64,000 bases of DNA from positions 1,612,594-1,676,593 of the forward strand of contig CP073749.1 of the NCBI GenBank assembly GCA_024398055.1, written 5' to 3'. This DNA is from a bacterium SCSIO 12741 (GTDB lineage: Bacteria; Bacteroidota; Bacteroidia; Flavobacteriales_G; Salibacteraceae). A program made the position numbers and the translations under genes. The notes below the pieces were generated by a model. The model ran no database searches and was not told where the DNA came from. It saw only the letters and a list, made by a program, of their open reading frames with translations. Positions 1 through 15,952 of this stretch are shown in pieces (the stretch's first letter is position 1; every line of letters starts with the position of its first letter).

Positions 1-1
1 G

Positions 2-1519
2 GTCTTCCATTACCGCCGCTCTATGAAGAGTGCCGTCGTGGTGACGATGCTGTTTATGTTTACCGGTATTTTGATTGTTGTTTACCTGAATCAAACTCCG
101 ATGGAGCCTCGGGAGCGTGATTACGCTTATGTAGGTTCGTTTATGACCTTCTGTATTTGGATTGGATTAGGTCTGTTGGCCTTGTTTGACGCCTTGAAGA
201 GATCGATGAAGCCCGTTATCGCAACAGGCTTGGCGCTCTTGATTTGTCTTCCAATTCCTACTATCCTTATCGCTCAAAACTGGGATGATCACGATCGTTC
301 CGGGCGATACACAGCAAGAGACTTTGCGAAAATGTACCTCGATTCCTGTGAGCCTAACTCGGTTCTTTTCACGAACGGGGATAACGACACCTTCCCACTG
401 TGGTACGTACAGGAGGTAGAAGGATATAGAACAGACGTACGTGTGATTAACCTGAGCCTTTTGAATACCGATTGGTACATTAATCAAATGCGTCGTAAGG
501 CCTACAAATCTGGCCCCGTTCGCTTCACCATTCCTGAGCCAAAATACCGTCAGGGAACTCGTGATTACATTCCCGTAATTGACCGAAACAAAAAGAAGGA
601 ACACGTGGACATCAAGCGTGTGGTTGAATTCTTCACCAATGAGAAGAATCAAGCGGTAATGGGTCAGAATAAGAAGATGAATTACTCCCCTACCAAGCTA
701 TACTCCTTGAAGGTGGATACCAATAAATTCATCAACAACCCATCTATTCCTGAGGAAAAATGGGGCGAGATTGTTCCTGAAATTCAATGGACCGTCGGCC
801 GAAGCTACCTGCTGAAGAAAGACATCATGATGATGGACTTGTTGGCTCACTTCAATTGGGACTTCCCAATTTACTACGCTATTACTACGGGTAATGACGC
901 CTACTTGGGTCTTCAAGGTTACTTCCAGTTGGAAGGATTGACTTATCGTCTGGTACCTTATAAAGCTGCAAGCCCTGATGGACAAACGGGTTATGTACAC
1001 GCTGAAATCATGTATGACAACTTGATGAACAAGTTCCAGTTTGGTAATGTGAAGGATCCAAATGTATACGTGGATCACAACATTTTGAGAATGTGCATGA
1101 ACCTGAGAAACAACTTTGCTCGTTGTGCTGAGGCCTTGCACCGCCAAGGAAAGAACGACAAAGCTCTGGAAGTGCTTGATCGCTGTATGCTTGAAATGCC
1201 AAAAGAGAATGTTCCTTACAACTTCTTTGTACTACCTATTGCTGAGCTCTATTACAAGTTAGGTCAAACGGAAAAGGCGACTGCGATCCTTTCAGAAATG
1301 CGTGAAACCTACGTAGCTGAGTTGGATTACTACTTTGCCCTTGACCGTGATATGTATGCGAAGATTAAGAGTCAGGCGAAACAAACGATTTCTATCCTCT
1401 ACCGATTGAACCTCATGGCCAGTCAATATGTGCCTGGTGATCAGATCACCCAAGATTTGACGGATGATTTCAAGCGTTTGGAGGCTGACTTTAACCGATT
1501 AGAAGGAGTCGCACGTTAA
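2..1519 (+). CDS. DUF2723 family membrane protein, C-terminal part (5' truncated)
   Basis: The reading frame is open from base 2 before the first Met, so the gene runs in from the left edge. Three hydrophobic segments lie near the visible N-terminus. The motif EPRERDYAYVGSF between the first two is characteristic of the DUF2723 family of Bacteroidota membrane proteins, related to TMEM260 and to GT-C protein O-mannosyltransferases. Members usually have about 1000 residues, so roughly half is missing here. After the membrane part comes a soluble region of about 390 residues, ending in helices with a TPR-like look (around the ALEVLDRCMLEMP segment). Whether it transfers sugar is not known from the sequence. 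The stop lies 15 bases before the deacetylase start. Confidence 0.8.
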   Translation, partial: VFHYRRSMKSAVVVTMLFMFTGILIVVYLNQTPMEPRERDYAYVGSFMTFCIWIGLGLLALFDALKRSMKPVIATGLALLICLPIPTILIAQNWDDHDRSGRYTARDFAKMYLDSCEPNSVLFTNGDNDTFPLWYVQEVEGYRTDVRVINLSLLNTDWYINQMRRKAYKSGPVRFTIPEPKYRQGTRDYIPVIDRNKKKEHVDIKRVVEFFTNEKNQAVMGQNKKMNYSPTKLYSLKVDTNKFINNPSIPEEKWGEIVPEIQWTVGRSYLLKKDIMMMDLLAHFNWDFPIYYAITTGNDAYLGLQGYFQLEGLTYRLVPYKAASPDGQTGYVHAEIMYDNLMNKFQFGNVKDPNVYVDHNILRMCMNLRNNFARCAEALHRQGKNDKALEVLDRCMLEMPKENVPYNFFVLPIAELYYKLGQTEKATAILSEMRETYVAELDYYFALDRDMYAKIKSQAKQTISILYRLNLMASQYVPGDQITQDLTDDFKRLEADFNRLEGVAR

Positions 1520-1523
1520 TTCG

Positions 1524-1531
1524 TAACTTTC
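1524..1531 (+). promoter_or_regulatory. -7-like element before the polysaccharide deacetylase
   Basis: TAACTTTC differs at one position from the Bacteroidota -7 consensus TAnnTTTG. It ends three bases before the ATG at 1535, so a transcript from it would be leaderless. No -33 TTG was recognised, and the gene may equally be read from upstream. Confidence 0.3.
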
Positions 1532-1534
1532 CGC

Positions 1535-2155
1535 ATGCCGTATTACCGAACGCCTGATAGCGTTTCCGGACTGCTTCGGAAGTATACCTTTCATTTATCA
1601 CGCCATGAGCGGGTATTGTACCTCACCTTTGATGATGGTCCACACCCGGTAATCACCCCACAAGTGCTTGAATTGCTTGAACATTTTAATGCCAAGGCAA
1701 GCTTCTTTTGTGTAGGTGATAACTTGAGAAAATATCCTGATGTTGCCGAACAGGTGCTTGAAAAAGGGCACTTGATTGGCAATCATACCTTCCATCATTT
1801 GAATGGATGGAAAACAGGAAACAAGTCGTATTTCAAAGATTTTCTCAGGGCCGAAAACCAACATGCCACTCAATGGTTCAGGCCACCCTACGGAAAGATT
1901 AAACCAATTCAGGCTAAAGCCATTTTTCGTACCCATCAAATTGCTATGTGGGATGTTCTCAGCGGCGATTACCGAAAAAGTGATTCCCCGGAGATTTGCA
2001 CCCGGCGTGTCATTCAACACTCTAAACCTGGTAGTATCATCGTGTTTCACGATAGCGAAAAGGCTGAAAAAAATATGCTGCCCGCTCTAAAGAAAACCCT
2101 TGAGTATTTTTCCGATAAAGGGTATCAATTCAAGGCATTACCTCCGCAGGTTTAG
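1535..2155 (+). CDS. Polysaccharide deacetylase (carbohydrate esterase 4, NodB domain)
   Basis: This 206-residue protein is a single CE4/NodB domain, which removes acetyl groups from N-acetylated sugar polymers such as peptidoglycan or chitin-like chains. The defining motifs are present: TFDDGP at residues 31-36 with the catalytic and metal-binding Asp pair, HTFHH with zinc ligands His84 and His88, and RPPYG near residue 116. There is no clear signal peptide; the first 25 residues are polar, so the protein may be cytoplasmic or exported by an unrecognised route. The true polymer substrate cannot be read from the sequence. The stop overlaps the convergent outer-membrane protein gene by four bases. 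Confidence 0.88.
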   Translation: MPYYRTPDSVSGLLRKYTFHLSRHERVLYLTFDDGPHPVITPQVLELLEHFNAKASFFCVGDNLRKYPDVAEQVLEKGHLIGNHTFHHLNGWKTGNKSYFKDFLRAENQHATQWFRPPYGKIKPIQAKAIFRTHQIAMWDVLSGDYRKSDSPEICTRRVIQHSKPGSIIVFHDSEKAEKNMLPALKKTLEYFSDKGYQFKALPPQV

Positions 2156-5100
2156 AAATAAGCCCGTACCCTCATCGTACCTGAATGAATGGTTTTGGTA
2201 TCCTCTGATTGACGACCGCTGTAACTCAAATCCAGCTGAAGGTATTTTCCTATGTTTCGCTGGTAGGATACTTGCCAGGTAGCATTGTTTCCGGGTTGAA
2301 GGCCTTCTAAAATTTCGTAAGCCAGGGAATTGTTGCTCTCCCCTTCGTAGGCTATTCTCAGGTAATTGGCCTCTACCAAAAAGCTTCCTTTGCCCACCTT
2401 ATTGAAACGTAATTCAGATCCTAACTCATTGATTTCTCCCGTTTCTCCACCGAGCGAAATCTCATTTTCCTTCCATTCGTAACGATACTTCAAAGCCATT
2501 CTGAAAGCAATACCCGGTTGGTAGGTGAGCTTGGGCTGAACGGAATAATAATCGATGCTAAAGTTTCGACTCGTGGCATATTCAGCATCGCTGAACTGGT
2601 CTCCTTGGGTTGCTTCCACCTCCATCAAATACAAGCGCTTAATGTTCAGTCGAGCACGGATTTTATTGAAAATATTGGCCCTGGATTCCAGTCCGCTTGT
2701 AAGCAATGTTCGGCTTCGGATATCCTGATAGGTCCAGTCCATTCCAAAAATCTGGTGGGTTCGATTGAAATACACCGTGTTTCTTAAGGATGAATTAAGC
2801 GCTACCAACTGAGAATCGATACCGGCACTGGGAAGTGGGTTAAAACGAGCGTCAAAGTCTTCATTTTCCGTCTTGCGACTTATCCGGTAGGCCGTTTGAT
2901 TCGCAAAGGCAGAAAGGAGTTTGCGGATACCTTTCTTACTCCGCCATATTCGCGCAGGATTGATGTAAAGCGTTTGGTTAAACTGATTAGAAAACGTCTT
3001 CACGTATTCATCCGTCACATTAAAGATCCGGATATAGTCCGCTTCATCCTGAAATGCTGCAATCTCAAATTCATTGAGTTCCTCAATTCCATTTTCATTG
3101 TAGTCGATCCAGGTATACACACCTTGGCCACTGGCCACTTTTATGTAACGGATCTCTCTTTTCGCTTCCAACCCCGATCCTACTTCATAAAAAGAACCCG
3201 CCGTTACAGCTCCTTTGAACAGGTTAAGATTGTATTCCAACCTGCTTAGCAGGTTTTCATCTGGTTCGGAAGCAGCAATAGATTCATTGCGAATTTCAAG
3301 TTTCCGATAGGTGGTTCTGGCGGCCACTTGAAGTTGACGCATTTTCCGCCAATGGATGGATGCCCCATAGCTCTCTCCAAAAGTGGCTGGAGAAATTCTG
3401 TTTTCCACAGCTTTATCATCTTCCCGTTGGTTGTAAAACACCCGATATCCGAATTGATTACTGTCTCCTGTCTCCACAAAAAACTCTCGTTCCCAAAACC
3501 GGTAGGCCGCACTGGACAAGGTATCAGCTGCCGGATCAAATATTCGGTTGTCCTCTCGGTCATCCCGGTATCCCAGCCATAGGTTCCACACTTTTTTCTT
3601 GAGCAAGGTTTTATGGCGGATAAATTCAGACTTGCTCATTTCACCATCCGTGGTCAAGGCACTTCCTGTAAAATCCAAATGAATGCCCCCCGTTTTGTAC
3701 TGAGCCAAGAGATTGGCCTTATTGGCTTGGTACTGGCTTTCTGCAAAAAAACCTTGCCAGTTCAACTCAACCTTACGCACCGGACTCTTTTGCAAACTCA
3801 CTCCAGCCTGGGCAATGTTTTGTTCAGCAACCAAGTTGAGGTCTCTCAGGTTCCAATCCCGGTAAAATTCCACCGTTCGAATCCGTTCTATTTCACTAAA
3901 ATGTTTGCTCCAATGCTCGATGGCCACTTCAGGCACTAATGCCCAGCCTTTGGGGTCTTCTGCCAGCGCAAATTGATGCTTCCAGCCGGCCTTAGCTGCA
4001 TAACCCACATCGTCGTCACTGTCCAAGTCGGAGAACGTATTGATGTCGTTTTTGCTGATCGCCGCTTCCCCGGTAACGCTCGATCCTTTCTTGTATTTCC
4101 AGGCACCACCGAACGTGGCCATTTGCTTTTGAGAAGGGGCATATAAAACGGTTATCGGAGCATGCGTTCCTTGCCTGACTCCAGCCAGCGGCTCAATCCA
4201 TTGAAATACGCGACCATTGGCCACTGTATTTACCTGGATATAATCTCCCGCTCCAGGCGGAACCTCAGTAAAAGTCACTCGGTAAAAAGCACTGTCGGGG
4301 TTGTTGGAATAAACCAAAACGGAATCATAGCCCAGGCTATCCACCATCTTGTACAGAATCTCGTTTTCGTTAAACTCCACTTGCTTCGGGCTCCAGGAAT
4401 AGGCGTTGTCCAAACTATCTCCAACCTGGGTCAAAATCTGTTTTTGCTCATCCGATAGATCCTGCTGTAAGCTTTGGTTCTTGGCGTCCTGCTCGGAGTA
4501 CAAATTGAAATCAAGGGTCAGGTTTTTGTACTGGTAGTGATCCGAAAATTGGACCAGGGAGCGGGTATAATTCTGGTCAGAATATTGAAATTCCACCACA
4601 ATCCTTTTGTCTTTGGTGATGATTTGCTTAGCCGTAAAGGTGATCTCTGCGGTATTGTAGTTGATCACATAATCCTGATCTTGCCCTCTCACCAAAAGCC
4701 GACCATCTATAAATACTCGCTCCGTACCAGACAGGATGATGATGTAGGATTCATTTTCAGCTCCCATCAAGCGATAGGGACCTTGGTTACCCTCCACACC
4801 CTGAATGATGTTTCTGGAAAACTTACCCCGACTCAAAGCCCCGCTGAGCTTCACCTTCATCTTGCCACGATCCAGGGTATCAGGTCTATTCTTGCCCACA
4901 TAAAATTTGGCCTCTCCGCTCAGTCCTTGAGCTTTTTTGAGGTATCGCATAAAATAGCTTTGCGGTGGGTTTAACTTAAAATCACCAGCCACAAGCTTGA
5001 CTTTGTCGTTGTATACCTGGATGTAGACCTGGTCAAAATCCTGAAGCTGCTGGGTATTTCCATCCGGTTGAATCGGGACATTTTCGTCGGTAATGGCAGC

Positions 5101-5646
5101 CAAAACGTAAAGGTTATCAGCAATTTTTCCACTCAATTGTAAATTCAAGCTGGAGCTTACACTTACATCCCGGTTGTTTCCAAATCCAATTCCCCGACTG
5201 ATGCTACCACTCTTTTCCAGACCACCCAATTCAAAAACGTCCTGCTTCTGGGCATCCTTACCGGTGTATCGAAATGGATTTTGAAGGCTGGTTATTTTAG
5301 GGTTGATTCGATCCGGGTTCTTGTGGTAGTATTCCTCATAAAAACTAAAGGGAAAGGTGCGGTATTGAACCTTTACACGAGGGTATTGGTTTCGAAATTC
5401 AGGTGTGGTAACCAATTCGCCCGTTAGGGGTATTAACTCATACAACGCTGTATCGATGGGAGTGCCCGTTTCTGTGGTCAGCTTAAACGAATGGGCAATT
5501 ATGGATAGGCTATCCATTCGCACCGTGTCTTCCATCAATGGAATCCACTTAGACTGAGACGAACTTCCAGGGCGCTGTGACCAAGCCGAGTTTATCACTC
5601 CGACGATCAGAAGTAGGCCAAAAAACGTCTTAATCCCAGATTTCAT
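2152..5646 (-). CDS. Large predicted outer-membrane beta-barrel protein of unknown function
   Basis: A 1164-residue exported protein. The ATG at 5646 directly precedes a signal peptide (MKSGIKTFFGLLLIVGV, cleavage near SAWSQ). A TTG four codons upstream would also be open, but it adds nothing signal-like. Most of the chain is alternating aromatic/polar beta strand, ending in a C-terminal Phe (RVRAYF), as in outer-membrane barrels. An insert around residues 290-370 (GTERVFIDGRLL, YNTAEITFT) looks like a beta-sandwich. The text resembles conserved Bacteroidota surface proteins of SprA-like flavour, but it is half the length of SprA and I cannot assign a named family. It ends the minus-strand ExbD/VWA cluster and could be its outer-membrane partner (inference). 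Confidence 0.7.
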   Translation of the reverse strand: MKSGIKTFFGLLLIVGVINSAWSQRPGSSSQSKWIPLMEDTVRMDSLSIIAHSFKLTTETGTPIDTALYELIPLTGELVTTPEFRNQYPRVKVQYRTFPFSFYEEYYHKNPDRINPKITSLQNPFRYTGKDAQKQDVFELGGLEKSGSISRGIGFGNNRDVSVSSSLNLQLSGKIADNLYVLAAITDENVPIQPDGNTQQLQDFDQVYIQVYNDKVKLVAGDFKLNPPQSYFMRYLKKAQGLSGEAKFYVGKNRPDTLDRGKMKVKLSGALSRGKFSRNIIQGVEGNQGPYRLMGAENESYIIILSGTERVFIDGRLLVRGQDQDYVINYNTAEITFTAKQIITKDKRIVVEFQYSDQNYTRSLVQFSDHYQYKNLTLDFNLYSEQDAKNQSLQQDLSDEQKQILTQVGDSLDNAYSWSPKQVEFNENEILYKMVDSLGYDSVLVYSNNPDSAFYRVTFTEVPPGAGDYIQVNTVANGRVFQWIEPLAGVRQGTHAPITVLYAPSQKQMATFGGAWKYKKGSSVTGEAAISKNDINTFSDLDSDDDVGYAAKAGWKHQFALAEDPKGWALVPEVAIEHWSKHFSEIERIRTVEFYRDWNLRDLNLVAEQNIAQAGVSLQKSPVRKVELNWQGFFAESQYQANKANLLAQYKTGGIHLDFTGSALTTDGEMSKSEFIRHKTLLKKKVWNLWLGYRDDREDNRIFDPAADTLSSAAYRFWEREFFVETGDSNQFGYRVFYNQREDDKAVENRISPATFGESYGASIHWRKMRQLQVAARTTYRKLEIRNESIAASEPDENLLSRLEYNLNLFKGAVTAGSFYEVGSGLEAKREIRYIKVASGQGVYTWIDYNENGIEELNEFEIAAFQDEADYIRIFNVTDEYVKTFSNQFNQTLYINPARIWRSKKGIRKLLSAFANQTAYRISRKTENEDFDARFNPLPSAGIDSQLVALNSSLRNTVYFNRTHQIFGMDWTYQDIRSRTLLTSGLESRANIFNKIRARLNIKRLYLMEVEATQGDQFSDAEYATSRNFSIDYYSVQPKLTYQPGIAFRMALKYRYEWKENEISLGGETGEINELGSELRFNKVGKGSFLVEANYLRIAYEGESNNSLAYEILEGLQPGNNATWQVSYQRNIGKYLQLDLSYSGRQSEDTKTIHSGTMRVRAYF

Positions 5647-5796
5647 ACCAGCACCCAAAGGTATCCATTATCCTTGCCGCAAGGCCAATTTGAGCGCTAC
5701 AGCAAGAACACAAGCAAACGTCTTAAGTGGGAACGAAGTATGTAAGCCAGCTACCGATTCGTAGAAGTTCCGTTTTTTGGTTTGAGCGAGCCGGAA

Positions 5797-6240
5797 TTAG
5801 GGGTAGGTACTGTAGAGCAATTTGAACGCTCTACTCTTTCGAAGTTCTTGTTTTACCTGAGTCACATTTTCCATACGAGCCTCTTGATCAACCTTTAAGG
5901 ATGCCGTCCATTTTCCTCGTTCTGCCTCCGAGTGTCGGTTCACCTCTTGTTCCACAAAGGCCCCAATCTCGGATGGGTCGGCAAAGGCATCGTTTAGTTG
6001 CACCCGGGCAACACGACCATAACGTGCGGTATCAATGGGTGAGCCAATGTAGATGTAACTAACCAACGATCGATTTTGAATTCGTTCGGCTTCGCTGGCA
6101 TGAGGTTCTCTAATCTTAAGCAACAGATTTTTTTGCTGCATAACCGTTACCGTCATAAAAAAGAACAATAGAATGAATACAATATCCGGCAGGGACGATG
6201 TGGATATAGTTGACTGCTTTCCTTTCTTCTTTTTTCCCAT
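5797..6240 (-). CDS. ExbD/TolR-family protein, second copy of the short type
   Basis: This 147-residue biopolymer transport protein has a short Lys-rich cytoplasmic N-terminus, one membrane segment at about residues 16-37, and a periplasmic domain. Asp19 at the start of the membrane helix (SLPDIVF) matches the proton-pathway Asp of ExbD/TolR. It is clearly paralogous to the protein at 10349-10816: both have SLPDIVF, then NRSLV or NKSLV followed by YIYIGSP, then QLNDAFA and VTQVKQELRK. It starts 12 bases after the longer ExbD stops. Such proteins use the proton-motive force together with an ExbB/TolQ pentamer. No second exbB is present here, so it may share the one at 11838-12722. Confidence 0.85.
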   Translation of the reverse strand: MGKKKKGKQSTISTSSLPDIVFILLFFFMTVTVMQQKNLLLKIREPHASEAERIQNRSLVSYIYIGSPIDTARYGRVARVQLNDAFADPSEIGAFVEQEVNRHSEAERGKWTASLKVDQEARMENVTQVKQELRKSRAFKLLYSTYP

Positions 6241-6251
6241 AATTCTCCTCT

Positions 6252-6833
6252 TTATCGTTCAGACACATAGGGCGTGGCCTCAGATATCCTCATCGGACAA
6301 AGTTTTCTGATGGCCAGCACCTTTTCCTTTTCACCTTTCTCAATTAACTCCTCATAAGTGATGCCAAATTCTTTCCGGGCCAATTCGTTTCTCGCTTCTT
6401 TATAGGCACGAGCCAGCTCATTTTGTACCTGGATATATTGGTTATAGCTGGTTTTGGCGTCATTCTGAAGGGAAATCAGTTGCCTGGAAACCATCCTTTT
6501 TCCGAGCCCCGGAATCTCTTTTTCCCTCTTTTCCGGTAAATGGTCCAGGTTATCCGGATTGAGAATAAACTCTCGCACTTTGTCTTTAAGCTCCTGCACC
6601 GGAAGCAACTCTCCTTCAACAAGCAGCTCATCCTGCCCATTGATCAGGACGATCATTAAATTTCTCTTTCGCTCAACAGGCGGGTGAGTTACGTCATTAT
6701 CTGGAGGCAGAATTCGGCCGAGGCCATACTCCGTATCCATCGTGGTGGTTACCAGAAAAAAGACCAAAAGCAAAAAAGCGATATCGGCCATTGAACTGGC
6801 ATTGATAGAGGGTAATTCTTTGAAGTATTTCAT
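6252..6833 (-). CDS. ExbD/TolR-family protein, second copy of the long type
   Basis: A 193-residue ExbD-like protein. The stretch [19 protein letters not shown], with Asp17 in the single membrane helix, is identical to that of the protein at 10819-11406, while the periplasmic part has diverged. The periplasmic domain is longer than in the neighbouring short ExbD and includes a basic, Glu-rich middle. The pair 6252-6833 plus 5797-6240 repeats the order long-short seen at 10349-11406, so a two-gene unit was duplicated. A 12-bp perfect hairpin ends one base before the ATG (separate entry), which may limit translation. Confidence 0.85.
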   Translation of the reverse strand: MKYFKELPSINASSMADIAFLLLVFFLVTTTMDTEYGLGRILPPDNDVTHPPVERKRNLMIVLINGQDELLVEGELLPVQELKDKVREFILNPDNLDHLPEKREKEIPGLGKRMVSRQLISLQNDAKTSYNQYIQVQNELARAYKEARNELARKEFGITYEELIEKGEKEKVLAIRKLCPMRISEATPYVSER

Positions 6834-6834
6834 G

Positions 6835-6863
6835 GTTTGGAATTTGAATCACAAATTCCAAAC
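6835..6863 (-). promoter_or_regulatory. Perfect 12-bp hairpin abutting the exbD start codon
   Basis: The arms GTTTGGAATTTG and CAAATTCCAAAC pair perfectly around a 5-base loop. On the minus strand the 3' arm ends one base before the ATG at 6833. There is no following U-run, so it does not look like an intrinsic terminator. It fills most of the 44-base gap between the VWA gene and the second exbD pair. A role in translation control, RNA processing or differential stability is an inference. Confidence 0.55.
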
Positions 6864-6877
6864 TCTGTGCCAACTTG

Positions 6878-9175
6878 TTAGTTTTTAACCACTTTAACAT
6901 TTCCATTCTTGGCCAACTGGTCAACGGCGAGAACATAACCGGTCAACTCATCCACCAGTTTTTTGACATCTTCATCCTTCGCTTCAGGAAACAACTCCTG
7001 CACTTGATCCAAGCAGCCTTCAACGGCAACTTTAGCCTCTAGGAAATTCTCCTTTTCCAAAGCTTCGATAAGCACTTTGATACTTTGATTCATGATGGCC
7101 ACGGCATACAATTTCTTAAACTCCCGATCGAGAATTACCTGCATTCTTCCCGTAGCTGGTTCCCATTTCAAATAGGCTTTTTGAGTCAAGCGTTCTTGTT
7201 TCCCAGTCTCGGCATCCCGGTAATCCAATTCGATTGTAACCGGTTCATTTTCGATGGATTGATCCGGCTTAATTAAGTTAAACTGCGCCAAAGTAACCTT
7301 CTGGTAATTTCTATAAACCGTTCCCAATTCCACTTGAACTCGATCCTTTTCTGTTTTTTTGACCTCAGCTCCAAAGAGTTCCTTGAATCGAATTTTTTGA
7401 TTGAATTGGATGGAGAGAACCACATTTTCTGCTACTGGAGCTATGATGCCGTTTAATTGTTTTCTGAAGGTTTGTTCAATTTCCTTCCCGCCCACAGCTT
7501 GGGAAAGTAAGCCGCCGTGGTTTTGAGTAATCAACTTTAACAAGGCATAGTTATAGTTGTTTCCTACTCCTATGGCAGAAATGTCAATCCCTTTGGCTGT
7601 ATAGCTGTTCGCCATATCTACTACTTCTTTAGGAGGTCTGGAGCCATATCCATCCGTGAGTAGAATAACCTGTTGAGGGCGATCGGGAGATTGAATTTCA
7701 AGCATTTTCTGGAAGGCCATTTCCAGTCCGTTGTAGATCCGAGTGCCCCCTCCAGCTTCCAACTCCTCCACTCTTTCTTTTAACAGTGCTCCATTCTGTA
7801 CCTCACCTATCGGTTGTCGCTCTGATGCCGTCTCGTTGAAAGCATATAACCCTACCCGATCTCCAGGAATCAAATCCGGAATCAAATTGGCCATGGATAC
7901 TTTCACCGCATCCAATCGATCGTAACCCGCCATGGATCCACTTTTATCGATAACGAACGCCAAATCAACTTCCTTGGTTCTCTTAACAGGCTCAGGAGTG
8001 CCCTTCACACCAATTTGAAGCACGGCTTCCCGAGAAGTGCTCTTCACGCGGTCATTACCCCAATTCAGGAAGAGACCAATTTTCTTTCCGTGATCCGGCG
8101 CAGGAAGGTTCTTGGTTAAAAAGGATTCGAATTCCTGTATAAAAGCGCTTTCTCGTGTTGGCAGGTATCGCTCTGGATATTGCAACCTTGGGTTGGGCTG
8201 GTAAGTTATTTGCATGAATTTATGGGCGAGTCCCGAGGTCTTTTCCAAATTGATCACATCTACATCACGCTGAAACTCAAATTGGATGAGGTATTTTTCC
8301 TTTTTAGGGAGCAAAAACGTAGCTTTCCCATCGGCATCCGCTTTTGAATAAAACACCTTGTTGCTACCTATTTGATTCAGATAAATGGGCCCGCCCTTCT
8401 TTAGGTTATTCACCTGCATTTTAAACTGTACCCTTGCCGTTGTAGGAGGTTCATCGGGTTTGATACTTTGAATTAGGGTATCGTTCTTTTCCCATTCCTT
8501 AATCTCTGTAGGAACATAAGTATAGCTAAGGGAGTGGATGCTTTCTCGGGAAATTTCAGGAGTATAACCGTGGTTTTTGATTCCATCCAAATCCACAATG
8601 TAAGCTTCGCCAATGGGCACTTGAAAACTGGCCAACCCAGTTGAGTTGGTTTTGGATTGGTATTGCACGCCTTTTTGTGGCCCCAAAAGGCTTACCGGAA
8701 CATCGCGCACCCCTTTTTTCTCTTTGTTTTTTACCTTAATCTGAACGACGGCCATTCCCCTACTCGGCTGCCGATAAACCTTTCCGGTTTGATCAACCGA
8801 TTCAAAGGTTTGTCCCTTCCGAGCTTTTCGTAAAGCCTCTTCCCGTTGAATGGTAGCCAAATCATAGGCTATGGTCATGGACCCAGACCCCATGGCCCCT
8901 TCTTTGATTCTAATCTGTTTATAATCAGGTAAGCCGTTTAGGCTCACTGCCCATTCTCCGGCAGGTATTTCAAACTCCACCTGCCCCGTAGAATTGGTTC
9001 TGGCTTCAAGCACTTCTCCAGTATTCTGTTCCTTCCACCAAATTCGGACATTGGGTTGGCTTTGTCCCCGGTAATTTTTGACGGTTATGTGGTAGGTAAA
9101 TTCGGTTTGAGACCAGGAATAGGAAGAAAAAAGGCATAGCAATGCCAGGGTAAATACCGATGCTAAAAATTTCAT
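6878..9175 (-). CDS. Exported von Willebrand factor A (VWA) domain protein with Ig-like modules
   Basis: A 765-residue protein with a signal peptide (cleavage near SYSWSQ). The N-terminal 330 residues hold about three beta-sandwich modules of the kind that follow the pattern TNSTGQVEFEIPAGEW or TNSTGLASFQVPIGEA (carboxypeptidase-regulatory/prealbumin-like). A VWA domain spans about residues 400-575. Its MIDAS motif DKSGS is intact at Asp410, Ser412 and Ser414, and LLTDGYG supplies the later Asp, so metal-dependent ligand binding is likely. The C-terminal 180 residues are beta-rich then helical. No transmembrane anchor or lipobox is visible, suggesting a soluble periplasmic protein. It lies between two ExbD pairs and probably acts with them (inference from context). 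Confidence 0.82.
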   Translation of the reverse strand: MKFLASVFTLALLCLFSSYSWSQTEFTYHITVKNYRGQSQPNVRIWWKEQNTGEVLEARTNSTGQVEFEIPAGEWAVSLNGLPDYKQIRIKEGAMGSGSMTIAYDLATIQREEALRKARKGQTFESVDQTGKVYRQPSRGMAVVQIKVKNKEKKGVRDVPVSLLGPQKGVQYQSKTNSTGLASFQVPIGEAYIVDLDGIKNHGYTPEISRESIHSLSYTYVPTEIKEWEKNDTLIQSIKPDEPPTTARVQFKMQVNNLKKGGPIYLNQIGSNKVFYSKADADGKATFLLPKKEKYLIQFEFQRDVDVINLEKTSGLAHKFMQITYQPNPRLQYPERYLPTRESAFIQEFESFLTKNLPAPDHGKKIGLFLNWGNDRVKSTSREAVLQIGVKGTPEPVKRTKEVDLAFVIDKSGSMAGYDRLDAVKVSMANLIPDLIPGDRVGLYAFNETASERQPIGEVQNGALLKERVEELEAGGGTRIYNGLEMAFQKMLEIQSPDRPQQVILLTDGYGSRPPKEVVDMANSYTAKGIDISAIGVGNNYNYALLKLITQNHGGLLSQAVGGKEIEQTFRKQLNGIIAPVAENVVLSIQFNQKIRFKELFGAEVKKTEKDRVQVELGTVYRNYQKVTLAQFNLIKPDQSIENEPVTIELDYRDAETGKQERLTQKAYLKWEPATGRMQVILDREFKKLYAVAIMNQSIKVLIEALEKENFLEAKVAVEGCLDQVQELFPEAKDEDVKKLVDELTGYVLAVDQLAKNGNVKVVKN

Positions 9176-9265
9176 AATGTGTGGATTAGGCTTATTTAGC
9201 TAACGAAAACGAAACCCATATATTTTGGCAGGATGGCTAATTTCTCTCCGTACCGATAGAAAGCA

Positions 9266-10276
9266 TTAGTGGAGATAGGTGTATTCCCAGATCAAATCGT
9301 TGGCCTGGACCAATTCCGGTTTGATCTGAAAATAGAAGAGCTTTTGCTTTGATTTAACCTGCTTTTTCTCGCCCTTTCTGTTGGCCACTGAAAAGTCAGA
9401 TACCGCTTTGTATTTGGTTATCGTGTAGTACTTATACTTCTTTACCCTTTTCTTTTTAAGGTGAGAAAAAAGAGAGGCCGATTGAGTAGGGCTGGCTAAA
9501 TGAGTCACCCCAAACAATCGTTTTTTGAGCAAAACAGGCTCTGCAGATATAACCACCTGATAAGACCGAGAATCAAAATAGGTTCTCATACTATCGATCC
9601 GAATATCGCGGACCCAGGGTTGAATATTTCCCATTTTCTTGTGAAATCCTCCATCGGCCGGATAGAGCATTGGCCAAATTCCGTCGATTACTTTAGAGAT
9701 TTTGGCTTCGTCATAGCCCCTTTTCTTGTTGTGATCAGGCACATCAATGATAGAAGCGAAGGCATGAACCTGCTTTCCTTTGGCTTTCTTTTTCACGTAG
9801 GCCAATATCTCCAGGTACTTCTTGTTGTTATTCCCTCCCGAACGATTTATCCATTCCATATCCAGAACCAATCCCTGGTAAGGAACCTCCAACCGCATCA
9901 ATTCTTCTACCAGGTTATTGGTAATGCCCTCATGATCCTCATATAAGGCCTTAAAACCGTCCTTTCCATAGCTATCCATATACCAGAGGTGAACTTCTAC
10001 CTCTCGGCGATTTAAAGCCATGCAAAACGCCTTTAAGTTTTCCTGACTTTGAGAAGATTGGAAAAAGCCACCTCTTCCGAAGGGGTATTTACGCCCAAGG
10101 TGCAGTACCACCCGGTTGTATTTCTGTGAAATGGCCTCAGCCATATCCACCACCTGTTCTTGGGTATTGTTCTGGAAAGTTACTTGCACCAAGGAATCAT
10201 TTCCAAGAATTATTCCTTGCTGCCCATAGCTATTAAGGGTGCCAAAAAACAGAATGATGATAACCAGTCGCTTCAT
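9266..10276 (-). CDS. Exported TIM-barrel-like protein, possibly glycoside hydrolase 18-like
   Basis: A 336-residue protein with a signal peptide (cleavage near NSYGQ). Alternating strand/helix segments look like a TIM barrel: VVLHLGRKYPFG, VEVHLWYMDSYG, YQGLVLDMEW, QVHAFASIID and IDGIWPMLYPA. The LVLDMEW strand end resembles the DxxDxDxE strand end of GH18 chitinase-like enzymes, but only an Asp-x-Glu is seen, so activity is doubtful. The C-terminus is very Lys-rich (KKKRVKKYKYY). It starts just downstream of the exb terminator and ends 90 bases before the VWA gene. I cannot name the family with certainty. Confidence 0.5.
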   Translation of the reverse strand: MKRLVIIILFFGTLNSYGQQGIILGNDSLVQVTFQNNTQEQVVDMAEAISQKYNRVVLHLGRKYPFGRGGFFQSSQSQENLKAFCMALNRREVEVHLWYMDSYGKDGFKALYEDHEGITNNLVEELMRLEVPYQGLVLDMEWINRSGGNNNKKYLEILAYVKKKAKGKQVHAFASIIDVPDHNKKRGYDEAKISKVIDGIWPMLYPADGGFHKKMGNIQPWVRDIRIDSMRTYFDSRSYQVVISAEPVLLKKRLFGVTHLASPTQSASLFSHLKKKRVKKYKYYTITKYKAVSDFSVANRKGEKKQVKSKQKLFYFQIKPELVQANDLIWEYTYLH

Positions 10277-10296
10277 TTACTACCTCAAAAATGGGC

Positions 10297-10323
10297 AAAA
10301 AAAAAGCCCGCCGTAGGGCGGAC
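10297..10323 (-). terminator. Intrinsic terminator after the exbB-exbD operon
   Basis: On the minus strand GTCCGCC and GGCGGGC pair (six Watson-Crick pairs plus one G-U) around a 4-base loop, followed by nine U. It lies 26 bases past the stop of the short exbD at 10349 and just before the TIM-barrel gene, so it separates the exbB operon from the VWA part. Confidence 0.8.
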
Positions 10324-10348
10324 TCTCTTTTATCAGGTATGAATTTTT

Positions 10349-10816
10349 CTATTCCTTCTGCGCTTTTTCCATGGTGGAATAGGAAATCTTAAGGGCCTGT
10401 ACCTTTCTAAGCTCTTGCTTAACCTCGGTAACAATTCCCATTTCCGTTTCCCGATCCACTTTCATAGAAGTCGTCAACAAAGGAATTAATTGCTCGTCTT
10501 GTTCAGCTCTTTTCTGCTCGATGTAAGGACCTACATCAGCAGGAGAAGCGAAGGCGTCATTCAACTGAATCCTTGGAGTAGTACCATATTTAGCGGCATC
10601 TGTAGGAGAACCGATATAGATATAGTTAACCAAAGATTTGTTCTCCAGTTTCTTAATCTCCGTCGCTTCAGGTTGAGACATGTTCACCTTGAGCTCTACT
10701 TCCCGCATTACGGTAGAAACCATAAAGAAGAAAAGTAGCATGAATACAATATCCGGAAGAGAGGCGGTTGATACAGCAGGTGTATCTTTCGTTTTGCCTT
10801 GTTTAAACTTTGACAT
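10349..10816 (-). CDS. exbD: ExbD/TolR-family biopolymer transport protein (short type)
   Basis: A 155-residue single-pass protein with its membrane helix at about residues 19-38 and the proton-pathway Asp22 in SLPDIVF. A conserved periplasmic domain follows. It is the last gene of the set exbB, 4-TM protein, exbD, exbD and is followed by a terminator. Its start lies two bases after the stop of the long ExbD, so translation is probably coupled. Together with ExbB it should form the proton-driven motor that energises TonB-dependent uptake or a related envelope process. It is the paralogue of the protein at 5797-6240. Confidence 0.88.
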   Translation of the reverse strand: MSKFKQGKTKDTPAVSTASLPDIVFMLLFFFMVSTVMREVELKVNMSQPEATEIKKLENKSLVNYIYIGSPTDAAKYGTTPRIQLNDAFASPADVGPYIEQKRAEQDEQLIPLLTTSMKVDRETEMGIVTEVKQELRKVQALKISYSTMEKAQKE

Positions 10817-10818
10817 GT

Positions 10819-11406
10819 TTAGTTTCCTCCAATATCTTTAGGTTCAGCCTCGGAAATTCTTTGTGGATAAACCGAACGAACTGCTTTTACTCGTTGCTCA
10901 TCTTTAGCAGCAATCAAAGCATCGTAAGATTTTCCGAATTTCTCTTTTGCCAATTCATCTCTCAACTCGTTGTATGCCCGGGCCAATTCGTTTTGAACCT
11001 GGATATACATGTTGTAAGATGTTCCGTTATCATTCTGAAGAGAAATAACCTGCTTTGAAACCTCCACATTTCCGAACAACGGAACTTCTTTCATGGATTT
11101 TTCAGGCAAGTTTTCGTCGTCGTATGGGTTTGCGATAAACTCCTTAGCTGCGTCTTTCAACTCACTAATGTCCATCAAGCTACCTTCGACCAGCAACTGG
11201 TCATTGGCATTTACCAGAACAACGAATACATTTCTTTCCTTGATTTCCGGTGGTTCTTCAATCTCATCCGGAAGCGGTGGTGGCAATTTTCTCGCCAAAC
11301 CGAAATCCGTATCCATGGTAGTTGTAACCAGGAAGAACACCAACAGCAGAAACGCAATGTCTGCCATCGAACTGGCGTTTATTTCGGGTGGATCTTTTTT
11401 AGCCAT
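10819..11406 (-). CDS. exbD: ExbD/TolR-family biopolymer transport protein (long type)
   Basis: A 195-residue protein with membrane segment [14 protein letters not shown] near the N-terminus and Asp16 as the expected proton carrier. A Pro-rich stretch ([14 protein letters not shown]) follows the helix, then a periplasmic domain containing QVISLQND and [20 protein letters not shown]. The C-terminus ([14 protein letters not shown]) matches the copy at 6252-6833 (IRKLCPMRISEATP). In Bacteroidota two unlike ExbD proteins commonly sit in tandem behind ExbB, as here. Which of the two contacts a TonB is not known from the sequence. Confidence 0.88.
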
Positions 11407-11424
11407 AACCTTTAACTATCTTAA

Positions 11425-11826
11425 TTATTTGGTAATACGCGCTACACCGGCGTAAACAATGCTCAATACCGAAACTCCGGTAAGGATGTACAAAATCCAA
11501 AGACCAGCACCACTCCAACGAATGGCTGTATCTGAAACCTCTGCAGGATATGAATCCAAACGTTCACCAGAGGACAGCACGTAACCCAGCACGACAACGA
11601 GTGCCAGTGCTCCTACCCCAATCAACATGTTTTTAATCGTATGTGGTTTGGCAGCCAATCCGGCTCCAAAGGCAACAAGGCCCAGCAACACACCGATAAA
11701 CATGAAGATGTATGAGGTCATCAACATGGCATTGTAACCTTCGAACCATACGCTACCTACGAATACGATAACGCCAATGATTAGAAGTACATACAGTACC
11801 ATTGATGAAATTTTTTCTGCATTCAT
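11425..11826 (-). CDS. Small four-helix membrane protein of the exb operon
   Basis: 133 residues with four hydrophobic segments (about 8-27, 34-56, 65-85 and 104-128) joined by very short loops. No catalytic or metal motif is visible. It lies between exbB (gap 11 bases) and the first exbD (gap 18 bases). The same small membrane protein is found at this position in other Bacteroidota exb operons, so it is probably an accessory of the ExbBD motor. Its role is unknown. Confidence 0.75.
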   Translation of the reverse strand: MNAEKISSMVLYVLLIIGVIVFVGSVWFEGYNAMLMTSYIFMFIGVLLGLVAFGAGLAAKPHTIKNMLIGVGALALVVVLGYVLSSGERLDSYPAEVSDTAIRWSGAGLWILYILTGVSVLSIVYAGVARITK

Positions 11827-11837
11827 CTTTAAGCCTC

Positions 11838-12722
11838 TTATTTATTAGCGTTTTGGTACTTGATCAAAAGGTCTACCAAAGAGATAGAAGCGTCTTCCAT
11901 ATCGTTTACGATGCTATCTACTTTAGATACGATGTAGTTGTAGAAAACCTGAAGAATCATCGCAACCAAAAGACCGGATACTGTAGTAATCAAAGCCACA
12001 CCAATACCGTTCGCTACAATTCCTGGAGAAATGTTGTTCGCTTCAGCAATCGCGTCGAATGCTTCAATCATACCCACAACCGTTCCGAAGAATCCGAGCA
12101 TCGGAGCCAGGGCGATGAACAATGAAATCCAAGAAAGACCTTTTTCCAAAAGACCCATTTGAACAGATCCATAAGAAACAACTGATTTTTCTACCATATC
12201 AAGTCCTTCAGACGCACGGTCTAAACCTTGGTAGAAAATAGAAGCTACAGGACCACGAGAATTGCGGCATACTTCTTTAGCAGCTTCAACACCACCGCTT
12301 TGAAGAGCTCCTTCTACATCGCTCAACAACTTCTTAGTATTAGAAGTAGAAAGAGTCAAGTAAAGAATTCTTTCAATACATACGGCCAATCCTAAAATCA
12401 AACAAATCAATACGAAGGACATAAAGAAAGGTCCACCCGCAATAAACTTGTCTTTAAGGATTTGGTGAAATGGCTTATCGCTTTCAGCGGCTTGCTTATC
12501 CTCTTCAGGACCCATTTTTTCAGCTTCAGTAGCAGTCGCAGCCGACTCCTCATTTGCCATTTGATCATCTTGCATCATATCAGCTCCAGCGTTTGCAGAA
12601 TCTGTGGTCTGCTCCACTGTAGCCGTGCTGTCATCGGCGGGATCACCTTGAGCAAATGAGCTTGTTACATAGCCAAAATTTAGCGTTGCAATAATGGCCA
12701 TCATTGAAAACAACTTGTTCAT
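11838..12722 (-). CDS. exbB: MotA/TolQ/ExbB proton channel family protein with N-terminal extension
   Basis: This 294-residue protein is the channel subunit of the ExbB-ExbD motor. Residues 1-25 look like a cleavable signal peptide (TSSFAQ). Residues 26-80 form an acidic, Ala/Gln/Met-rich periplasmic linker. Three membrane helices follow at about 98-118, 198-220 and 236-262, with the family signature GLLEKGLSWISLFIALAP and the GVALITTVSGLLVA pore helix. The signal peptide and linker make it longer than classical ExbB. It begins the minus-strand operon, 50 bases downstream of tRNA-Ser on the same strand. I saw no separate TAnnTTTG promoter in that gap, so readthrough from the tRNA is possible. 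Confidence 0.88.
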   Translation of the reverse strand: MNKLFSMMAIIATLNFGYVTSSFAQGDPADDSTATVEQTTDSANAGADMMQDDQMANEESAATATEAEKMGPEEDKQAAESDKPFHQILKDKFIAGGPFFMSFVLICLILGLAVCIERILYLTLSTSNTKKLLSDVEGALQSGGVEAAKEVCRNSRGPVASIFYQGLDRASEGLDMVEKSVVSYGSVQMGLLEKGLSWISLFIALAPMLGFFGTVVGMIEAFDAIAEANNISPGIVANGIGVALITTVSGLLVAMILQVFYNYIVSKVDSIVNDMEDASISLVDLLIKYQNANK

Positions 12723-12772
12723 ACCTGTTTTGATTTGAATTATTTAGTTTTTGTCATCATTGTTTTTCCTTG

Positions 12773-12859
12773 CGGAGAGAGAGGGATTCGAACCCTCGAG
12801 ACCCGTAAAGATCTACACGCTTTCCAGGCGTGCCATTTCAGCCACTCATGCACCTCTCC
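12773..12859 (-). tRNA. tRNA-Ser(GGA)
   Basis: 87 bases read on the minus strand. The acceptor arms GGAGAGG and TCTCTCC pair with one G-U, and the discriminator is G. The anticodon stem CACGC/GCGTG encloses loop CTGGAAA, giving anticodon GGA (plus-strand bases 12823-12825). The T-arm is GAGGG-TTCGAAT-CCCTC, and a long variable arm typical of serine tRNA is present. CCA is not encoded. Confidence 0.95.
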
Positions 12860-12967
12860 TCTAATCTTCTTCGGGCAGCCCCCGTAAAAGCGGGCGCAAA
12901 TTACAAAATTTTTACTTCACCGTACGTAACGGGCGATTTGTTTAATTTTTAGTTAATACTGCTTACC

Positions 12968-14914
12968 CTATTGTGTTTTTAGGCTTGGATCTATTTCAAA
13001 CGCTTTTTGATAGCAAGCGTTGGATTGCTCCGTTTTACCTTGATTCGCATAAGCCACTCCAAGATTTAGCCACAATCGAGCATTATCCGGATCCAGTTTA
13101 ATTCCTTGATTAAACATCTCAATTGCCTGATCTAAATGACCAAGTAGAGCGTGGGCAACGCCCAGTTTCTGCACATAATCCTTGTTTTGGGGATCAATTT
13201 GGTAGGCTTTTTCCAAGTAAGAGATGGCCTGTTCGGGTTTATTCATGTTCTTTCCGTACAACTCTCCAATCTTCTCAAGTATTGTGCCATTTTTTGGATC
13301 GTATTGCAAGTAGAGTAAATAGGCCTTTTCAGCTTCCGCAAACTTTCCATCTGCGGTAGCTTCCTGCCCTACGTATTCCAGATTGGTCATGGCAAAGGAA
13401 TAGCCCGGCGTCATCTTTAAGCAGTTTTCATAATAAACCAGTGCTGAAGCGTAATCTTTCAGCCCTGTATAAGCATTTCCCGAAAGCAGCATAGGGGCCA
13501 TGTAGGTAGGATATATTTCCAATGAACGGTGGAGATAATTTATTGCTTGGTTCAATTTTCGCGCTTTTTCTGTCGGGTTCCGTTCAATATCTGCTTCATC
13601 AATTAGGGCCAATCCAGCCGACATGTTGCACTTGGCACTGTTGGTGGATACTTCAACATCGGTCAATGCCAGGGTCGCATCCGTTTCCCAAGCCGGGTTT
13701 CTTACCCAGGTGACAATGCTATAGGCAATCACAATTCCAAGGAAAACGACGGCACGTAACTTTTCTGCTTTGATTTTCTGAAGGAAAAAAACACCCACAA
13801 AGCCAATGGAAAGAACGGGTAAATACAAAAACCGTTCATTCATAAAGGTACCAATGGGGAACAGCAGATTGGAATACAAAACAATTCCTCCCAGGTAAAT
13901 TCCAGAAACAATGGCCCAAATATTTCGCTTGATAACACCCCAAACAAATACACCGATTAAACAGAGGTGTGATATTAACCCGAGCCAAGCAGTCCATTCT
14001 CCCCAACCATAAATTGGAATTTGAGCAGGGTAATAGTCGTGAGTAAGTGGGTGTGGAATAACCAATAAATAGAGGTAACGGCTCAAGGTGTGAAAGATGG
14101 TCGCCAATTTCTCGCCCGGCTCAGCATAAAGAAATGGATTGTTCATCCACTCTTTGGCAATTTCTGTTTTGGCCGACCCCAATATCTGGTACCGCATACC
14201 TATATATATAAGCGTGGCCAAAATCAAGGTTCCGGATGCCATGGCCCATTTCTTTTTATCCAGATCCTTGAGCAGGATAAAAGTGATTAAAGGAATGAAA
14301 CCGGCAAATACTACGGACGACTCTTTGGAAAGAAGACTTAGAAAAAACAAAAAGCCTGAAGCTCCTAAAAAAATCCAGTTTGACTTTTCAAAAAAGCGCA
14401 ACACATAATAGAAAGCGGTTAACGCCAGAAAAGTTCCAAGTATTTCATCACGACTCTTAATGTTCGCCACTACTTCAGTATGTAGAGGGTTAGCCAAGAA
14501 GATTGCGGTAATGATAAAAGCGGGGGCCAAAAACCAAAGCCCTTTTTCCGGAGGAATTAGTCTGGATAAGATTAGAAACAACATCAAGCCTGTTAAGGCA
14601 TACAAAAGGATGTTGAAGAAGTGATACACCCCCGGAGAGTTTCCAAAAAACTCCCACTCCAAAGCGTGCATGGTCATGGACAGGGGGCGATATCGTCCAC
14701 CAGAAACCAAGTTCTTATCCTTACCAAAAAAACCGGTCATGCTATCATGGGTAAACAGGTCCCCGATTCCATCAATGCCTTTTTTAGTAAATGAATTGTT
14801 GGTGATTACAATCTTGTCGTCCAGCACAAAATCGTAGTTCAAGGTTTGGGCATACAGCAGAACTGCCAATAGGAGGACCGCTATTTTTCCTAAGTTTTGG
14901 CTTTGATTTTTCAT
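12968..14914 (-). CDS. TMTC-like multipass membrane protein with C-terminal TPR repeats
   Basis: A 648-residue protein with about ten hydrophobic segments in the first 430 residues, followed by five or more TPR repeats (for example YENCLKMTPGYSFAMTNL and DPDNARLWLNLGVAYANQG). The first periplasmic loop has FVLDD (Asp32/Asp33), matching the acidic pair after helix 1 in GT-C glycosyltransferases and in TMTC O-mannosyltransferases. The family therefore suggests a lipid-linked-sugar-dependent transferase or a relative without activity. The start ATG overlaps the asparaginase stop by four bases, so the two are co-translated, although no shared pathway is obvious. Confidence 0.75.
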   Translation of the reverse strand: MKNQSQNLGKIAVLLLAVLLYAQTLNYDFVLDDKIVITNNSFTKKGIDGIGDLFTHDSMTGFFGKDKNLVSGGRYRPLSMTMHALEWEFFGNSPGVYHFFNILLYALTGLMLFLILSRLIPPEKGLWFLAPAFIITAIFLANPLHTEVVANIKSRDEILGTFLALTAFYYVLRFFEKSNWIFLGASGFLFFLSLLSKESSVVFAGFIPLITFILLKDLDKKKWAMASGTLILATLIYIGMRYQILGSAKTEIAKEWMNNPFLYAEPGEKLATIFHTLSRYLYLLVIPHPLTHDYYPAQIPIYGWGEWTAWLGLISHLCLIGVFVWGVIKRNIWAIVSGIYLGGIVLYSNLLFPIGTFMNERFLYLPVLSIGFVGVFFLQKIKAEKLRAVVFLGIVIAYSIVTWVRNPAWETDATLALTDVEVSTNSAKCNMSAGLALIDEADIERNPTEKARKLNQAINYLHRSLEIYPTYMAPMLLSGNAYTGLKDYASALVYYENCLKMTPGYSFAMTNLEYVGQEATADGKFAEAEKAYLLYLQYDPKNGTILEKIGELYGKNMNKPEQAISYLEKAYQIDPQNKDYVQKLGVAHALLGHLDQAIEMFNQGIKLDPDNARLWLNLGVAYANQGKTEQSNACYQKAFEIDPSLKTQ

Positions 14915-15945
14915 GACTCTGTTAATTCTCCTCTCCAGGATTTCGTGAATCGTTCTGCCACTTCATGGTCTGGAAAATTAGCCAAAAGCACCATTAGTTT
15001 GGTCAATGCAGCTTCATAGGTCAAGTCCCTAGCTCCAATTACACCGGCGTGATGCAGCCTTGCACCATTTTCGTACCGGGTTTGGTCCACCATCCCTTGA
15101 GCACATTGAGTAACATTTACAATGATCTTACCTCGGTCCACCTCATCCTTCAAAAGTTTTAAAAGCTTGCGGTCATTGGGAGCTTGGCCTGAACCATAAG
15201 ACATCAGCATCAACGCACGAGTCTGTTCATTCTTAATGGTGGGTTCATAATAATCAGGAGACATTCCAGGAAAAAAGGGAAGTACTCCAATCCGATCGTC
15301 GTATTTGTCCAAAATAGACAACCCATTAGTTGAAGGCGGCAAAATTCGGCGATCGTAGAACAATATTTGAACTCCAGCTTCTGCTAAGGGCGCCATGTTT
15401 GGAGAGGAAAATGCATTGAGGTGTTGCGTACTCGATTTGTGTGAACGATTACCCCGAAATAAGAAACTATCAAAATAGATAGCCACCTCAGGAACCCGAG
15501 CTGCTCCCATGCTATTTTTTGAGGCCGCAATCTGAAGGGCTGTGATTAAGTTTTCCTTTCCATCGGTTCGAATCATTCCAATGGGAAGTTGAGAGCCCGT
15601 CAGAATAACGGGTTTGTCTAACTCGGGAATCATAAAACTAAGTGCCGAGGCAGTAAACGCCATGGTATCAGTGCCATGAAGAATAACAAAACCGTCGTAG
15701 TCATCGTATTTTTCCAGAATGACCCGTGCTAAATCTGACCACAATTGGGGTTGAACATCTGATGAGTCGATGGGTTCCCCAAACGAGCGGGTATGAATAT
15801 CAAAATTAAACCTGGCCAGCTCCGGAACGGCATGAATCAGATGATCCAACTCAAAGGGCTTGTGGCGTCCGGTTACCGGGTCCAAAATCATACCGATGGT
15901 ACCACCGGTGTAAATCATTAGGATTGATGGCTCCTTGCTATTCAT
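14911..15945 (-). CDS. ansA: Type I (cytoplasmic) L-asparaginase
   Basis: The 344-residue enzyme hydrolyses L-asparagine to aspartate and ammonia. Both catalytic motifs are present: TGGTIG at residues 13-18 with the nucleophile Thr16, and HGTDT at 90-94 with Thr92/Asp93. Later conserved segments include VILTGSQLPIG and NVTQCAQG. The absence of a signal peptide and the length fit cytoplasmic AnsA rather than periplasmic AnsB. It lies 33 bases after tatD and overlaps the next gene by four bases. Confidence 0.93.
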   Translation of the reverse strand: MNSKEPSILMIYTGGTIGMILDPVTGRHKPFELDHLIHAVPELARFNFDIHTRSFGEPIDSSDVQPQLWSDLARVILEKYDDYDGFVILHGTDTMAFTASALSFMIPELDKPVILTGSQLPIGMIRTDGKENLITALQIAASKNSMGAARVPEVAIYFDSFLFRGNRSHKSSTQHLNAFSSPNMAPLAEAGVQILFYDRRILPPSTNGLSILDKYDDRIGVLPFFPGMSPDYYEPTIKNEQTRALMLMSYGSGQAPNDRKLLKLLKDEVDRGKIIVNVTQCAQGMVDQTRYENGARLHHAGVIGARDLTYEAALTKLMVLLANFPDHEVAERFTKSWRGELTES

Positions 15946-15952
15946 AGGATGT

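Follow-up and report, generated by a model that had tools for sequence, protein, structure and literature searches.

An ExbB/ExbD-type motor operon beside a conserved, unnamed giant barrel family in Bacteroidota

We analyzed a stretch of 64,000 nucleotides (the window) from the genome of bacterium SCSIO 12741, a member of the Salibacteraceae (Bacteroidota; Bacteroidia; Flavobacteriales_G), corresponding to positions 1,612,594 to 1,676,593 of the forward strand of contig CP073749.1 (assembly GCA_024398055.1). Nine genes that span window positions 2152 to 12722 on one (minus) strand encode an ExbB/ExbD-type motor, a secreted protein with a probable TIM-barrel fold, a VWA protein, a second pair of ExbD proteins, and a predicted giant outer-membrane barrel. 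The best explanation that we can offer, at a probability just short of even, is that the motor operon, which is conserved in Bacteroidota, and the adjoining barrel, which belongs to a conserved and unnamed family, work together, and that the four genes between them (here called the cassette) were added. The original prediction had been that all nine genes form one undescribed trans-envelope system. The gene order that it gave agreed with the coordinates and the Pfam matches. As a single system, the set was not conserved, the cassette was specific to one lineage, and a Ton operon with two ExbD genes was already in print; the pairing of motor and barrel was what stood as a lead.

The motor operon and the predicted giant barrel

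The features of the cluster are listed here, with protein lengths in amino acids (aa).

2152 to 5658, minus strand: predicted giant outer-membrane barrel (AlphaFold2), with a conserved internal domain at about residues 281 to 360
5797 to 6240, minus strand: ExbD2b, 147 aa, a fast-evolving ExbD1b paralogue (PF02472, 9.5e-12; end branch 2.24)
6252 to 6833, minus strand: ExbD2a, 193 aa, a fast-evolving ExbD1a paralogue (PF02472, 4.9e-18; end branch 1.31)
6835 to 6863, no strand: inverted repeat with perfect 12-bp arms, in the gap between VWA and ExbD2a
6878 to 9175, minus strand: VWA protein of 765 aa with Ig-like domains, an intact MIDAS and a signal peptide recognized by eye, lacking an SHLS motif (PF00092 at 3.6e-20; Ig-like domains also matched)
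9266 to 10276, minus strand: secreted TIM protein, 336 aa, with a signal peptide recognized by eye and a probable GH18-like TIM-barrel fold, restricted to the lineage (weak chitinase matches)
10298 to 10331, minus strand: intrinsic terminator ending the ExbB-TM4-ExbD1a-ExbD1b unit (folding energy)
10349 to 10816, minus strand: ExbD1b, 155 aa, membrane Asp kept (PF02472, 2.2e-10)
10819 to 11406, minus strand: ExbD1a, 195 aa, membrane Asp kept (PF02472, 4.7e-19)
11425 to 11826, minus strand: TM4, a membrane protein of 133 aa encoded between ExbB and ExbD1a; four hydrophobic helices, without a Pfam family
11838 to 12722, minus strand: ExbB/TolQ/MotA-type motor subunit, 294 aa (PF01618, 7e-28)

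The matches of ExbB and of all four ExbD proteins were above the respective Pfam cut-offs, and the membrane-helix Asp was present in 4/4 ExbD proteins. ExbB was 62 to 74% identical to its six mapped relatives, and ExbD1a matches were found in 41/42 genomes of the order. A terminator follows the first ExbD pair, as originally predicted: the sequence between ExbD1b and the TIM gene holds a stem-loop and a U run (-25 kcal/mol, z -4.23), and 0 of 200 shuffled sequences equaled it.

Two kinds of two-ExbD operon were found in the class. The 40 loci compared, from 39 genomes, were picked by us among the matches listed and are not a random sample; the scan took in flanks of about 7 kb in both directions wherever the contig was long enough, and the denominator of 40 includes L165, in which no motor gene was seen, and L159, which had ExbB only. 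The arrangement seen in the window, here called type B (ExbB, a gene of 100 to 175 aa in the TM4 place, ExbDa, and ExbDb), was present at 13/40 loci. No TonB gene was detected directly behind the ExbD genes at these 13 loci (the contig of L151 stops there), and at L147 and L151 a TonB gene stood about four genes upstream. At the other loci, a TonB gene was close by in 24/27 cases, mostly immediately after the ExbD genes. ExbB-TM4-ExbDa-ExbDb is a widespread motor operon.

In the window, the genes that follow ExbD1b are those of the TIM and VWA proteins, and tonB was not found as the next gene. The predicted absence of TonB held for the neighborhood and not for the genome (5.1 Mb, one contig), which had 10 TonB_C matches, 8 of them above the curated cut-off; a fifth ExbD gene and an ExbB gene were located near 2.309 Mb. 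Two TonB_C matches in the same genome lay just past the 3' end of the gene for SprA, the translocon barrel of the type IX secretion system (T9SS) (locus L206, C1:1112189-1121467). A Zorya defense system (ZorA/ZorB) was considered and rejected, as PADLOC run on eight proteins at E 0.01 returned only ZorA at E 6e-4 and no ZorB.

The barrel gene was found in 41/42 order genomes and in 76/118 phylum genomes, where the matches listed were pieces of one gene per genome. In the window, it can start at an ATG at 5646 (1164 aa, the length originally predicted) or at a TTG at 5658 (1168 aa). The AlphaFold2 model supported the outer-membrane barrel that had been predicted, with pLDDT 87.9 and pTM 0.76 from an 89-row alignment and 71.7 and 0.50 from 28 rows. 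From the DSSP list of the model we picked 40 barrel strands, 36 of which were at least 10 residues long. A giant outer-membrane β-barrel of about 36 to 40 strands is thus confidently predicted. The most conserved long blocks were residues 161 to 240, 281 to 360, and 841 to 880; in the model, residues 281 to 360 are mostly placed between strands and could form an internal plug. Residues 841 to 862 (window 3073-3138) hold a highly conserved G-x-G-x-Y-x-W-x-D-Y-N-x-N-G stretch, which we take to resemble a calcium-binding loop.

The barrel family is unnamed, and its kinship is undecided. The window protein matched no Pfam family at E 0.01, and stray matches occurred in at most 5 of 28 members. In Foldseek searches, SprA chains topped the list for both barrel models, with a best E of 3.4e-9 and TM-scores of 0.14 to 0.27. 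In VIA-align, ushers led with Z up to 17.0 (residues 143 to 807, 372 aligned, 9.3 Å), in a near tie with porins (Z 14 to 16.4). The window barrel had no match to TIGR04189 or to Pfam Usher at E 0.1, and the 28 members of profile A1 had none to Pfam Usher at 0.01. Kinship with SprA by sequence was tried and rejected, since nothing significant was returned by BLAST, by hhalign (0.5% probability; best E 0.12, 53 columns), or by PDB profile A1. A viral fold library gave no match of useful TM-score, and no publication on the family was found in the literature searched (mostly open-access articles, no preprints). Neighbor clustering over 138 distinct barrel loci was not used for conserved partners, as the most recurrent neighbors were oppositely oriented.

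Linkage of motor and barrel across genomes

Among the 118 phylum genomes, with type-B motor presence called at E 1e-14, motor and barrel were both found in 46, the barrel only in 30, the motor only in 5, and neither in 37. The two lay within 6 kb of each other in 15 of the 46 genomes with both: the window genome, 11 genomes from six genera of family f22, and 3 from one genus of family f20. In the order sample, they were adjacent in 7/40 genomes with both genes, the window genome included. Gene maps of five of these relatives (G162, G180, G188, G185, and G186) showed the motor followed by the barrel without the cassette; for G187, this arrangement was read from coordinates only. Specifically, a TatD-asparaginase-TPR gene-ExbB-TM4-ExbDa-ExbDb-barrel block was present in G162, G180, and G188, and the same block was present in G185 and G186, in the case of G185 from a partial asparaginase gene on, where the fetched stretch starts. 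Beyond the barrel, polysaccharide-deacetylase and DUF2723 genes were common to G162 and G180 and were not present in G188. In the window, the TPR gene (12968-14914, upstream of exbB and syntenic in relatives) encodes a membrane protein with C-terminal TPR repeats, and a tRNA-Ser gene (12772-12859) separates it from exbB.

Families f20 and f22 belong to another class, and at the 12 loci read the barrel gene preceded ExbB, the TM4 place, ExbDa, and ExbDb. A same-strand gene of 88 to 93 aa occupied the TM4 place at 10 of the 12; the open reading frame picker at times chose the wrong strand there (L330 and L333). Because this order is opposite to that of the window clade, adjacency of motor and barrel probably arose at least twice, or else was rearranged. 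At four other loci (L247, L258, L267, and L311), which apparently represent one lineage, a same-strand TonB_C gene stood directly after the barrel gene, with PF03544 matched in all four. We favored an energized barrel because the barrel is recurrently paired with ExbB/ExbD and, in that one lineage, with TonB.

Several observations weigh against a working pair. Motor and barrel were unlinked in 31/46 phylum genomes (6 at 39 to 92 kb, 10 further apart, and 15 on different contigs) and in 33/40 order genomes (7 at 18 to 61 kb and 26 on different contigs), with the proviso that many of the genomes are drafts, so some of the different-contig cases may conceal links. The cases at 18 to 61 kb could mean that genes already near each other became adjacent by local loss. 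A type-B motor was not detectable in 30 barrel genomes, and 5 motor genomes had no barrel. Among 80 named GTDB loci, the motor was adjacent to the barrel at only one, which is the same case as G185 and not independent of it. In addition, families f20 and f22 have common flanking genes: at L226, L227, and L324-L333, the barrel-motor block sat between a ribosomal L9 gene (by Pfam in L327) and an AIRS/thiL-like gene in both families, so we count the two as one ancestral arrangement. We take the genes flanking this block to be rpsR and thiL, the latter being the gene that matches AIRS. We place the odds of a working pair near even because the two are unlinked in many genomes and because other barrel genomes lack a type-B motor.

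If motor and barrel do work together, the motor would comprise an ExbB pentamer, an ExbDa/ExbDb axle, and the small four-helix protein TM4. Proton flow through ExbB/ExbD would drive a movement that is relayed to the barrel, either by the periplasmic domains of the ExbD proteins or by one of the TonB proteins of the genome, and the resulting motion of the barrel would gate or drive the transport of a large substrate. In the window lineage, a probable TIM-barrel protein, a VWA protein, and a diverged second ExbD pair would have been inserted between motor and barrel, and the second pair would probably serve the same ExbB as an alternative axle. A bolder version, which we consider doubtful, is that Bacteroidota possess a second proton-powered giant-pore system beside the T9SS, in which the undescribed barrel of 36 to 40 strands, driven by the ExbB-TM4-ExbDa-ExbDb motor whether or not TonB takes part, moves a large substrate over the outer membrane, and to which a VWA adaptor and another ExbD axle were added in this lineage. 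The place of the VWA protein in such a chain is the weakest part of the reading. Giant barrels are few. For the question of what ExbB/ExbD-type motors do beyond TonB-dependent uptake, a widespread unnamed giant barrel that adjoins a TonB-less motor in two distant groups offers a concrete pair to test.

The cassette between motor and barrel

The original prediction had relied on the genes keeping each other's company in related genomes. Motor and barrel did so in part, and the VWA gene, the TIM gene, and the second ExbD pair did not. The assignment of the 336-aa protein as a TIM barrel could be kept only as likely from its sequence: its matches in the PDB, an uncharacterized chain and three chitinases, were weak (E 0.003 to 0.26). 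A relative (40% identity) was found in a single further genome of the 295 class genomes searched, in which the gene adjoins what looks like a sigma-factor gene.

The MIDAS of the VWA protein was intact, as had been predicted (D410, S412, S414, T478, and D508). Its only hydrophobic segment was residues 1 to 19, which lack an Asp, and the SHLS pattern S[HN]L[SA] was not found in it. Neither the VWA protein nor the TIM protein had a Pfam match to a T9SS sorting tail. Full-length relatives of the VWA protein (30 to 31% identity) occurred in six class genomes, with partial matches in more, and none was among the matches listed for the 42 order genomes or the 148 phylum genomes; at E 1e-20, 30/395 genomes had a match, the window genome included. 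In the 15 VWA-relative neighborhoods inspected (from 15 of the 29 other genomes), no ExbB, ExbD, TM4, TIM, or barrel gene was found; two of the 15 stretches were short, their contigs measuring about 7 kb, and another four had a contig start less than 2 kb from the gene. Likewise, no VWA or barrel match was found in the scanned flanks of the 40 class loci. When GTDB contigs were scanned for the VWA protein, no match was returned; the scan was insensitive, since another search turned up full-length relatives.

Sister genera carry motor and barrel without the cassette, and thus TIM-VWA-ExbD2a-ExbD2b is an insertion in the window lineage, an optional lineage addition. A horizontal origin by base composition was rejected, as no shift was seen in 1-kb steps over positions 1-17000 (GC 0.41 to 0.47). 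The second ExbD pair has no ExbB gene of its own at the locus, in agreement with the original prediction. In the ExbD tree, the shortest paths from ExbD2a led to the ExbD1a proteins of G180, the window, and G162, but ExbD2a was on a long branch outside any supported clade, and it likely arose, judging from the sequences, by duplication within the window lineage; ExbD2b grouped with another long branch and could not be placed. Extra ExbD genes without their own ExbB alongside were also found in other genomes of the order, right after the first pair in G155, G156, G157, and G182 and elsewhere in the genome in G158, G159, G163, G170 (locus L110, 3.3 kb only), G173, and G184, and G186 had a complete second ExbB-ExbD-ExbD set. 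With spare ExbD genes gained repeatedly, the exchange of one axle for another within a single ExbB pentamer becomes testable.

A gap of 44 bases separates the VWA gene from that of ExbD2a. The inverted repeat between them (6835-6863) has a 5-base loop and z -3.8, is the sole copy in the window at up to 3 mismatches, and could be an attenuator or a processing site. VWA genes near barrels elsewhere were considered and rejected: a home-made VWA profile matched at 9/80 named loci (34 to 56 bits), and by Pfam eight of these were CarbopepD_reg proteins (some of them receptors or DUF5686 proteins). The ninth, L248 (2-3331) on an uncultured Bacteroidetes contig, was a true VWA protein of at least 1110 aa about 6.6 kb from the barrel, with a VIT-VWA architecture unlike that of the window protein. 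Similar matches in f22 loci were dropped; L327, the only one scanned, was CarbopepD_reg. Farther along the window, positions 51106-54453 encode a DUF4175-like protein of 1115 aa, slightly under the Pfam cut-off.

Alternative explanations and known systems

A real possibility, though one that we hold at less than even, is that the motor is an ordinary TonB energizer, its ExbB-ExbD-ExbD set working in nutrient uptake with TonB proteins whose genes lie elsewhere, and that the barrel is an unrelated outer-membrane protein and its adjacency historical. The 10 TonB_C matches of the window genome and the 31/46 genomes with unlinked genes fit this explanation, as does the exbB2-exbD21-exbD22-tonB2 operon published for Riemerella anatipestifer, in the part of that article available to us (PMC4446302). 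What speaks against it is that type-B motors (13/40) differ from the ExbB-ExbD-ExbD-TonB type, with TonB nearby in 24/27 of the others, and that a distant group, seven genera in two families, has the adjacency again with the gene order reversed. A full chain, in which ExbB and the second ExbD pair move the VWA protein as a periplasmic coupler that pulls the barrel, struck us as quite improbable. The genes do form a same-strand cluster after one terminator, with the short gap of 44 bases between VWA and ExbD2a, and the accessible portion of PMC12204202 proposes vWA proteins near tolQ and paired tolR as force transducers, in a layout with a TPR gene upstream, as found upstream of exbB. The VWA protein, however, has no membrane segment past its N terminus and no SHLS motif, sister genera hold motor and barrel without it, and motor genes were seen in 0/15 neighborhoods of its relatives and a VWA match at 0/40 class two-ExbD loci. 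The originally predicted role of this protein as the middle link therefore has no comparative support, as 0/15 neighborhoods held a motor, barrel, or TIM gene.

We also judged it unlikely that the barrel is part of the type IX secretion or gliding machinery and that its link to ExbB/ExbD is incidental. SprA was present in 76/76 barrel genomes, the barrel in 0/27 genomes without SprA, and SprA chains topped the Foldseek list for both models. Yet 15 SprA genomes lacked the barrel, and 19/20 listed genomes without SprA came from one family, so independent losses are few. The type-B motor showed the same inclusion (SprA in 51/51), the TM-scores were only 0.14 to 0.27, and no sequence match to SprA was significant.

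Among known systems, the ushers FimD and PapC resemble the window barrel in VIA-align (Z up to 17.0, porins 16.4) and in having a conserved domain inside the barrel sequence. Chaperone-usher barrels have about 24 strands, whereas 36 to 40 are predicted here, and no Pfam Usher match was found. SprA, according to the part of PMC10994853 at hand, is the 36-strand T9SS translocon barrel. It is likewise a very large single-chain Bacteroidota barrel, leads the Foldseek rows, and occurs in all sampled barrel genomes; the window barrel differs in being half as long, in its low TM-score, and in showing no kinship detectable by sequence. The vWA force-transducer clusters (PMC12204202) share the layout of a VWA gene by tolQ-like and paired tolR-like genes with a TPR gene upstream. 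As described in the available sections, their vWA proteins have an inner-membrane tether, either an SHLS helix or, in the second vWA family, a trans-pore helix with an Asp, whereas the window protein has a signal peptide, Ig-like domains, and neither helix. The closest published likeness to the motor, as far as the source at hand extends, is the TonB2-type operon of R. anatipestifer (PMC4446302), which also has one ExbB and two different tandem ExbD genes (PF01618 and PF02472 over cut-off in the window). That operon ends in tonB and is matched by the TonB-type two-ExbD operons of the class, whereas the window operon has TM4 inserted, no tonB next, and the cassette and barrel behind it.

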